Shown in pieces: positions 1 through 6,188 of a stretch of DNA of 64,000 bases. This DNA is from Williamsoniiplasma luminosum. Its GTDB lineage: Bacteria; Bacillota_I; Bacilli_A; Mycoplasmatales; Mycoplasmataceae. The stretch is taken from contig NZ_CP024963.1 of assembly GCF_002803985.1 (NCBI RefSeq), positions 620,001-684,000 on the forward strand, given 5' to 3'. Under the pieces are notes generated by a model. That model was not told where the DNA came from. It did no database searches and saw only the letters and a list, made by a program, of their open reading frames with translations. Each line of letters starts with the position of its first letter. Within the stretch, counting starts at the first letter, position 1. A program made the position numbers and the translations under genes.

Positions 1-75
1 ACGAGCTATCAAATAACCATCATTGGGGGTATAATCAAAAAAAATTGAACAACCTTTTTTTTGACATTTATTCAT
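1..75 (-). CDS. Small cysteine-containing protein, 3' part outside window
   Basis: The frame opens with ATG at 75 and runs off the left edge without a stop (25 codons seen). It begins MNKCQKKGCS, giving a CxxxxC pair like the zinc-knuckle starts of several neighbours. It starts 4 bases after the stop of the preceding gene in the same leftward operon. Function cannot be assigned. Confidence 0.5.
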   Translation of the reverse strand, partial: MNKCQKKGCSIFFDYTPNDGYLIAR

Positions 76-920: not shown

Positions 921-1268
921 TTATTCATTTACTAGTTCTAGATCGTATCAATACAAGGAATCACCTTGTTTAAAATAATCTTCTAATACAAAGTTGTTCA
1001 CATCGGACAACATTTGTCTTTTTGGATATTCCCAAAAGTCCGATTCATTTCCTTTAGTGCGGAGTAGTTCACTTAAATATTGCCCTATTTCAAATGTATT
1101 CATTTTAGTTTGTTTTAATTTCACAATCAAAGTTTCTTGAGTTTCAATATTTAACAATCTAACTTTAGTTCAATCTTTAAAACCATAATCTTTCTTTCTA
1201 ATTTCAAAGTTTTTGATTCCCTCTTTAACATATTGAAAAAAGTTATCTTGTATTTTTAATTCGTTCAT
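921..1268 (-). CDS. Hypothetical protein (115 aa)
   Basis: Starting at 1268 (MNELKIQDNFFQ) gives a 115-residue protein; two TGA codons are read as Trp, which is why only part of it is open under the standard code. It is mixed alpha/beta in character with no membrane segment and no motif I recognise. GGAAAC-type ribosome binding sequence precedes the ATG. Same operon as its neighbours, 13 bases from the next upstream stop. Confidence 0.6.
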
Positions 1269-5294: not shown

Positions 5295-5355
5295 TATTTA
5301 ATTTCCCCTTTATCATTTCGATATATTCAAATTCATGTAGAAAGTGTATTTTTAA

Positions 5356-5481
5356 TTACACTTTTGCATATTTTTCTAAGACCTTTAAAGTTTGTAACAT
5401 TTCCCTTTCAAGTTTTTCAATTTCCTTGTTGGTCTTAACTATTTCAACATTTAAAGCTGTTAGATAATCAATTCTTTTCAT
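5356..5481 (-). CDS. Small coiled-coil protein, first gene of leftward operon (41 aa)
   Basis: A 41-residue protein starting MKRIDYLTALNV, nearly all charged helix with heptad spacing. A strong GAGGAGA ribosome binding site precedes the ATG at 5481. It is the first protein gene after the GC-rich structured region 5518-5938 in the leftward direction, so that region would be its leader or an RNA gene just upstream. Confidence 0.55.
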   Translation of the reverse strand: MKRIDYLTALNVEIVKTNKEIEKLEREMLQTLKVLEKYAKV

Positions 5482-5517
5482 AACATTTCTCCTCATTTAT
5501 TACTTAATACATATCTT

Positions 5518-5938
5518 CAGGTTCACGAGTATTCTGCTTTTTGACGCAGTTTGCACCTTGTTGATGCAAACTGCGTTAGAAATAAATCTTCAGTTTACAC
5601 TGAGTACTGTTCCGTCCGCTATCATCAGTTTTTAAACTCAGACCCCCCTTGTTCCAAGTTAACTAGCTTATGTTAAAATGGAGATTGATGTTGCAAATGG
5701 TCTATCCATAAGTTGATCAAATCAACTTATCTACCTTGTACTTGCTATGTACAACGTGTCTAACTAGCAAAGTTAAACGCCCCTACATTTTGTTTTAATA
5801 ACTAGTTATGTAGACACTAACTGTTCACGGTCACAGTCACCGAAGATTTGTTTCGCCGCTCTCGCATGTCGCATAAGGTATCTTGCCCCGATCTGTACTT
5901 TTGTAAGACCCATTCAGTTAAATATTGTGTTCAACCTG
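5518..5938 (-). ncRNA. Candidate large structured RNA (about 420 nt) at head of mobile-element operon
   Basis: My hand count gives about 39% G+C over 5521-5940, far above the surrounding intergenic DNA, and no frame is open. Complementary segments: 12 bp at 5544-5555/5565-5576; 9 bp at 5708-5716/5722-5730; 6 bp at 5736-5741/5749-5754; a bulged 12-bp helix 5756-5767 with 5802-5808 and 5813-5817; a long-range 8 bp at 5584-5591/5842-5849; and a 6-bp closing pair 5518-5523/5933-5938. Nested local and long-range helices with one closing helix suggest a folded RNA rather than a simple terminator. Minus strand is preferred because the operon downstream runs that way. It does not show the conserved cores of RNase P RNA or tmRNA. 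Alternatives: a hairpin-rich replication or packaging origin, or a member of a known large phage-associated RNA class (GOLLD, ROOL) that I cannot recognise by eye. Confidence 0.45.
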
Positions 5939-5982
5939 TTAATATGTATTTTTCATTACACTTATATGAAGTTATGTTTGTT

Positions 5983-6028
5983 AAAAAAGACTACTCAATA
6001 ATTTAAATATTCATTAAAGTAGTCTTTT
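5983..6028. terminator. Bidirectional terminator-like hairpin
   Basis: An 11-bp stem pairs 5985-5995 with 6018-6028 around a 22-base AT-rich loop. A run of six T follows on the minus strand and four T on the plus strand. It separates the leftward mobile-element block from rpsO. Confidence 0.55.
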
Positions 6029-6119: not shown

Positions 6120-6188
6120 CTTATAAATTTCATGATTTTCTTAAACTCCCAAAATTTAGAAAAAATAATCAGATTTTTAGGGGAATTA

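Follow-up and report, generated by a model that had tools for sequence, protein, structure and literature searches.

A structured non-coding RNA outside Rfam, carried by conjugative and prophage-like elements of mollicutes

On the minus strand, the right end of an integrative conjugative element (ICE) of mollicutes holds a stretch of about 445 nt that almost certainly represents a real and new family of structured RNAs of mobile elements, with relatives found in five other species (genomes G193, G154, G184, G196, and G162). The DNA analyzed here (64,000 nucleotides, hereafter the window) corresponds to bases 620001-684000 of a genome of 1.03 Mb assembled as one contig, and its source is a mollicute, as genes in the ORF list are open only when TGA is read as tryptophan. 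An earlier note, made from the letters alone, had pointed to a large, G+C-rich, multi-helix RNA at the head of a mobile-element operon, and the composition, the fold, and the homologs described below together confirm this observation. The explanation that we consider probable is that of a structured non-coding RNA outside Rfam, encoded on the minus strand, carried by an ICE and by prophage-like elements, and acting in trans, possibly within a ribonucleoprotein.

Composition, fold, and parts of the RNA

The G+C content of positions 5518-5938 is 39.4%, compared to 28.2% for the window, in agreement with the approximately 39% highlighted earlier for an AT-rich genome. When positions 5480-5960 are folded, a z-score of -5.5 against dinucleotide shuffles is obtained on either strand, and the full RNA on the minus strand reaches -7.1, the best of 20 other minus-strand windows of 420 nt scoring -4.9. 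The extent originally assigned, 5518-5938, proved slightly too narrow, the RNA running from about 5506 to 5950 on the minus strand. Its parts, from the 5' to the 3' end, are as follows.

5506-5950, minus strand: whole structured RNA, from closing strand to closing strand
5933-5950, minus strand: 5' strand of the closing helix, AAUACAUAUUAACAGGUU, forming a duplex with 5506-5523
5890-5910, minus strand: 5' hairpin P1, a prediction for the window; its position is occupied by strong hairpins in G196 and G162 and by weak ones in the other homologs
5856-5877, minus strand: CUUAUG box and GNRA-tetraloop hairpin AUGC-GAGA-GCGG; GNRA present in 6/6 members, 3 or 4 nt after CUYAUG
5839-5845, minus strand: 5' side of the stem closing the five-hairpin junction, pairing with GG-AG at 5702-5707 (RNAalifold on alignment A3)
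5819-5838, minus strand: core hairpin H1, loop with conserved CGUGA; 3/5 pairs changed on both sides (n = 6)
5783-5813, minus strand: core hairpin H2; 2/4 counted pairs changed on both sides
5758-5778, minus strand: core hairpin H3, loop with invariant UUGC; 7/8 pairs changed on both sides, 100% paired
5736-5754, minus strand: core hairpin H4, then a conserved GGUAGA linker; 5/6 pairs changed on both sides
5708-5730, minus strand: core hairpin H5, then a conserved UGG; 4/5 counted pairs changed on both sides, 100% paired
5544-5576, minus strand: terminal hairpin HL, with a 5-nt loop; 3/11 pairs changed on both sides
5506-5523, minus strand: 3' strand of the closing helix, AACCUGAAGAUAUGUAUU (duplex test and sequence)

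The conserved core consists of the junction of five hairpins, along with the GNRA hairpin and the terminal hairpin, and the covariance-model match in the window covers positions 5700-5889 (112.7 bits). The short stem that closes the junction is kept in nearly all six members, yet it is almost invariant. Hairpin HL, which lies outside the covariance model, is the sole support for the 3' half of the RNA, and its loop is exactly 5 nt long in the window, G193, G154, G184, and G162. The helix proposed to join the two ends holds up in the window, where its duplex is matched by 0.4% of shuffles (p 0.004), and it also exceeds chance in G162 (p 0.018) and G196 (p 0.048), while the same shuffle test finds it no better than chance in G193, G154, and G184. 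Another pairing pointed out earlier, of 8 bp over some 260 bases, is present in the window (5842-5849 with 5584-5591), but it does not appear to be conserved, as inspection finds no equivalent partner for its 5' strand in the homologs. It is conceivable that the UUGC loop of H3 contacts a conserved GCAA further 3', neither of which varies.

Homologs, covariation, and the folded strand

A first blastn search of 320 genomes of the order returned two weak matches, both to the same 47 bases, whose flanks held the same string of hairpins in different sequences, and a second search, with one of these matches as the query, returned two more relatives. A covariance model of the five sequences (R1), for which hairpin loops were trimmed by hand for alignment, found a sixth member, G162, that was absent from the model (67.2 bits, E 1.9e-17). 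A model of all six sequences (R2) found no further members in the 320 genomes of the order, and no convincing further members in 395 genomes of the class, so the distribution is narrow: 6 of the 60 examined genomes of one family, with the members in G193, G154, and G184 being nearly alike. Weak model matches in G245, G015, G165, G168, G170, and G176 were rejected as chance ones, to glycyl-tRNA-synthetase-like coding sequence, the start of a 16S rRNA, and other coding sequences. The matches of 18-20 bits in G622, G627, and G354 were also rejected, since in them the pairs are broken or the model is only partly covered. Outside of cellular genomes of the class, blastn with the window RNA produced a single chance match of 30 nt, to enterobacterial phages, among phages, and none among plasmids, and a prophage copy of the RNA also had no match among plasmids. 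Exact RNA patterns had no match in the viral_contigs set and one in genome_contigs, in Aquimarina, which was judged to be due to chance.

Across the 28 pairs of the five hairpins in the six homologs, 98.2% of the cells are paired, versus 73.3% in shuffles, these counts being flattered by the fitting of the alignment (A3) to the covariance model, although G162 was not in the set from which R1 was built. When partners are slid by 1-3 columns, paired cells drop to 33-49%. Both sides have changed in 21 of the 28 pairs, versus 7.8 in shuffles, and the covariation score is 0.826 versus 0.267. Between the window and G193, both partners differ in 14 pairs and a single partner in one, and none are broken; between G162 and G193, both partners differ in 17 pairs and a single partner in three, and two are broken, 26/28 being kept in G162. 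Identity is 30-48% at paired positions and 71-73% at unpaired ones (48% versus 73% for the window and G193). The compensatory changes among the homologs therefore exceed those in the controls, as expected of a structured RNA. Together with the relatives themselves, this covariation bears out the large multi-helix RNA of the earlier note.

The same changes speak to the possibility of a short protein-coding gene or its remnant, with codons being the cause of conservation. From the ATG of the conserved box, a frame of 44 codons is open in G193 and G184, and the first 22 codons in the window are similar (MRHARAAKQIFGDCDREQLVST). However, the frame meets a stop after these 22 codons in the window and at codon 3 in G162, G154 has a frameshift, the frame of G196 is unrelated, and the sequence changes track base pairs. 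With no reading frame surviving in all six, the overlapping frame was rejected as coding, and this explanation, against which both the interrupted frames and the changes in pairs already speak, retains a negligible probability. The absence of a gene in this stretch had been noted before and is upheld, the longest overlapping reading frames being of 41-52 codons, and the one that resembles a homolog frame being broken in most homologs.

As to which strand folds, the paired cells include 9 G-U and 0 C-A combinations. G-U pairs would show as C-A if the opposite strand were the folded one; it is thus the minus-sense strand that folds, and a double-stranded cruciform is excluded. The RNA is also always co-directional with the next downstream gene. 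The tetraloops of the six members (GAGA, GAAA, GAAA, GGAA, GUGA, and GAAA) all conform to GNRA, on stems that differ. A loop that changes its letters while staying GNRA is a trait of RNA, and this favors an RNA over a DNA hairpin origin, the two having been left side by side in the earlier note. A DNA-level element, such as a hairpin-rich single-strand origin, a primosome site, or a transfer/packaging site, with the minus-sense strand single, would fit the position at the end of the ICE and the RuvC-like, SSB-like, and DnaC-like genes found among the prophage neighbors, and single-stranded DNA of one sense would likewise yield a strand bias. We nevertheless regard it as improbable, given that GNRA loops maintained through four sequences and G-U pairs are RNA traits, and that the relaxase gene lies about 9 kb away from the RNA locus.

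Mobile-element settings and the cysteine-rich gene

The RNA of the window belongs to an element of about 40 kb (approximately G000:C1:585000-626000) that includes the minus-strand genes to the left of window position 5500. The mobile element of the earlier note is an ICE of the mollicute type, as it encodes a VirB4 belonging to Mbov_0397, a mollicute ICE family (NCBIfam NF045975, E 1.5e-251 in a profile search), a VirD4 (NCBIfam NF045973, E 2.5e-76, likewise), and a relaxase that is MobP2/P3-like (MobP2 E 9e-13, below the cut-off of that model), and as a second ICE, that of G162, has homologs of its VirD4, its VirB4, and one of its large membrane proteins. The VirB4, VirD4, and relaxase are also what it shares with the described mollicute ICEs (MICE; ICEA/ICEB type, PMC7466169). 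On the right, the element is flanked by rpsO and a tRNA-Gly gene, on the chromosomal side, and homology to sister species begins only at about window position 6183-6187; therefore the end of the element falls between the RNA and this point, and the RNA locus is the first feature on its leftward strand. The features around the RNA are listed below, together with a cysteine-rich gene of the same element.

5983-6027, no strand assigned: probable bidirectional terminator hairpin between the rpsO side and the element, with a T run on the minus and plus strands (from sequence)
5961-5966, minus strand: TATAAG, a possible -10 element that precedes the 5' closing strand of the RNA by about 11 nt
5356-5496, minus strand: first downstream ORF, 46 aa, coiled-coil-like (ORF list, sequence)
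1-75, minus strand: part in the window of a small cysteine-rich (putative zinc-ribbon) gene; whole gene, G000:C1:619818-620075

The terminator scan made no call at the hairpin in 5983-6027, and a generic consensus promoter scan reported no minus-strand promoter, TATAAG included. Judging from the arrangement of these motifs, the RNA would be the first product of a leftward operon at the right end of the ICE, presumably transcribed from a promoter just upstream. A sequence resembling a ribosome-binding site, GAGGAG at 5489-5494, stands ahead of the ATG (5481) of the 46-aa ORF, and the 3' end of the RNA is approximately 11 nt ahead of this site, with no terminator in between.

Some other features of the ICE were observed along the way. 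One is a gene at window 921-1268 with a DUF3850/ASCH-like domain (Pfam PF12961, E 3e-8). Another is a pair of tandem, identical 155-aa proteins (G000:C1:588018-588485 and 589571-590038), each followed by a different continuation of one and the same next gene. A third is the palindrome AAGTGTATTTTTAATTACACTTTTGC at window 5341-5368, with eight further copies in G000:C1:587000-617500, a reused hairpin that is perhaps a terminator.

The other settings are mostly prophage-like. In G193, G154, G184, and G196, the RNA is found in prophage-like clusters and is preceded by a small RuvC-like gene, encoding a protein of about 154-173 aa with a weak match to PHROG 159 (E 0.037). In G193 the downstream genes include the cysteine-rich one along with those for a DnaC-like helicase loader (PHROG 50, E 3e-21) and for a terminase (PHROG 2, E 5e-7), a content that marks this locus as a prophage. 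The RNA of G162 sits amid phage-like and IS genes, and in G196 fragments of ICE genes are located a few kb from the RNA, so that element types are not cleanly separable there. The gene that comes next downstream is cysteine-rich in G193, G154, and G196, and it otherwise encodes a 130-aa protein (G184), the 46-aa coiled coil (window), or a 72-aa protein (G162).

These neighborhoods bear on whether the RNA could be a cis-acting leader, i.e., a 5' untranslated region controlling transcription or translation of its operon in the manner of an attenuator or a riboswitch. Its place in the window, between the probable terminator and the first gene and just ahead of the ribosome-binding site, would suit such a role, as would its place between co-directional genes in the four prophages, but the downstream gene is not the same across homologs, being common to 3/6, and no terminator or anti-ribosome-binding-site hairpin is seen at the 3' end of the RNA, which makes a leader unlikely, if less so than the DNA-level element considered above. 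An RNA acting in trans is favored instead, as the downstream gene is not fixed, the loops and linkers (CGUGA, UUGC, GGUAGA, GNRA) are kept, and a protein gene travels along with the RNA.

This protein gene is the cysteine-rich one. In the ICE of the window, about 5.4 kb separate it from the RNA, which lies upstream; in the prophages it comes directly after the RNA, or one gene further. It is the only gene of this ICE with relatives in the prophage loci of G193 and G154. Within the 60 genomes of the family, it is present in 5/6 of those that possess the RNA (G162 is without it) and in 0/54 of the others. The chance that 5/5 carriers would also have the RNA is 6/C(60,5), or approximately 1e-6, were the genomes independent, which four of them are not; an independent point in favor of a partnership is that two kinds of elements have both the RNA and the cysteine-rich gene. 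The N-terminal half of the protein contains C4, C9, C32, and C35, with many Lys and Arg residues, and a putative zinc ribbon is suggested by these cysteines. The structure model is confident only in the C-terminal helix, the N-terminal half having a pLDDT of about 40. Family searches with this protein gave no convincing match, and neither it nor the RuvC-like protein was found in viral_contigs or among phages.

The cysteine-rich gene is decaying in several of the prophages, with a stop in G193 and G196 and cysteines lost in G184 and G154. More broadly, at loci L059, L061, and L062 the prophage genes are decaying (a terminase in two frames, the stops or lost cysteines of the cysteine-rich gene) and the RNA pairs are kept, for which reason the RNA may be maintained after the death of the phage. 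In the G193 prophage, a second G+C-rich, strongly folded non-coding stretch is present between the terminase and the next gene (L059:17161-17380). A run of 13 nt in it (GAGCGGGCTCTGG) also occurs at the 3' end of the G154 and G196 RNAs, and the stretch has neither a match in Rfam nor a homolog among the loci compared.

Relation to known RNAs and possible function

Among the RNAs described so far, ROOL (RF03087) and GOLLD come closest in kind. Both are RNAs of phages and prophages without known function that form RNA-only cages, ROOL being large, multi-helix, and devoid of an ORF, as is the RNA described here, and GOLLD being giant and ornate (PMC12286853). The earlier note had mentioned both families as possible relatives, and membership in either is not supported by covariance-model searches. 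All 4227 models of Rfam 15 at E up to 10, GOLLD included, gave no credible match to the window RNA or to loci L010 and L011, and the whole window at gathering scores gave tRNA only. The ROOL model was silent at E up to 10 in the six genomes, as it was in control genomes, and ROOL was also not matched at loci L061, L062, and L089, where a scan of Rfam at E up to 0.5 returned one unrelated near-threshold match only. GOLLD is, besides, longer than the RNA described here, and ROOL has 574 model positions versus about 445 nt. Proximity to tRNA islands is described as frequent for ROOL; here, the single tRNA gene of the window is on the chromosomal side. A very divergent ROOL, GOLLD, or other known large phage RNA is thus a distant prospect in spite of its belonging to the same kind, i.e., large, ornate, protein-less, and found in prophages or mobile elements (PMC12286853), there being no credible Rfam match and a length unlike that of ROOL. 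The surmise that the RNA could be a new one has been borne out so far as Rfam is concerned, with no family matching the window RNA or its homologs. A literature search found no paper describing such an RNA in mollicutes, and a term search for non-coding or structured RNA gave no match in PMC7466169, which reviews the ICEs and prophages of mycoplasmas.

Other known systems resemble the RNA less. DUF3800-I RNA (RF02969) is also a structured RNA of mobile elements, but it is about 115 nt long and tied to a DUF3800 gene, and it differs in both sequence and place. The near-threshold match mentioned above is to this very RNA, in the G184 prophage region (L061:7793-7893, 42.4 bits with a cut-off of 44.2), and the adjoining gene encodes a DUF3800-like protein (L061:6939-7778). 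For guide RNAs of the TnpB/IscB type, an adjacent nuclease would be expected, and no such ORF is present near the RNA in the window or in G162; next to the four prophage copies, the RuvC-like protein has a size of only about 154-173 aa.

The RNA described here folds as a multi-helix junction, in which the five hairpins are accompanied by the GNRA hairpin, the terminal hairpin, and, in some members, a helix joining the ends. As a stable, folded RNA belonging to a mobile element, it would most probably act in trans. Its conserved loops and linkers look like sites of contact. The small, cysteine-rich, basic protein whose gene travels along is a candidate partner, the two possibly forming a ribonucleoprotein. 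A more tentative proposal is that of a portable machine composed of the RNA and this protein, moved between conjugative elements and phages and serving their entry or replication, with jobs such as countering host defense or handling single-stranded DNA.

In conclusion, the structures of ROOL and GOLLD are known and their functions are not, and it is against this background that the value of the new RNA is to be seen. Compared to these, it is smaller, shows clear covariation, occurs in two kinds of elements, has a candidate protein partner, and belongs to bacteria with small genomes. These features make its function open to direct testing. The RNA can also serve as an anchor in the search for mobile elements of mollicutes and in their annotation, their detection being hard in these bacteria.
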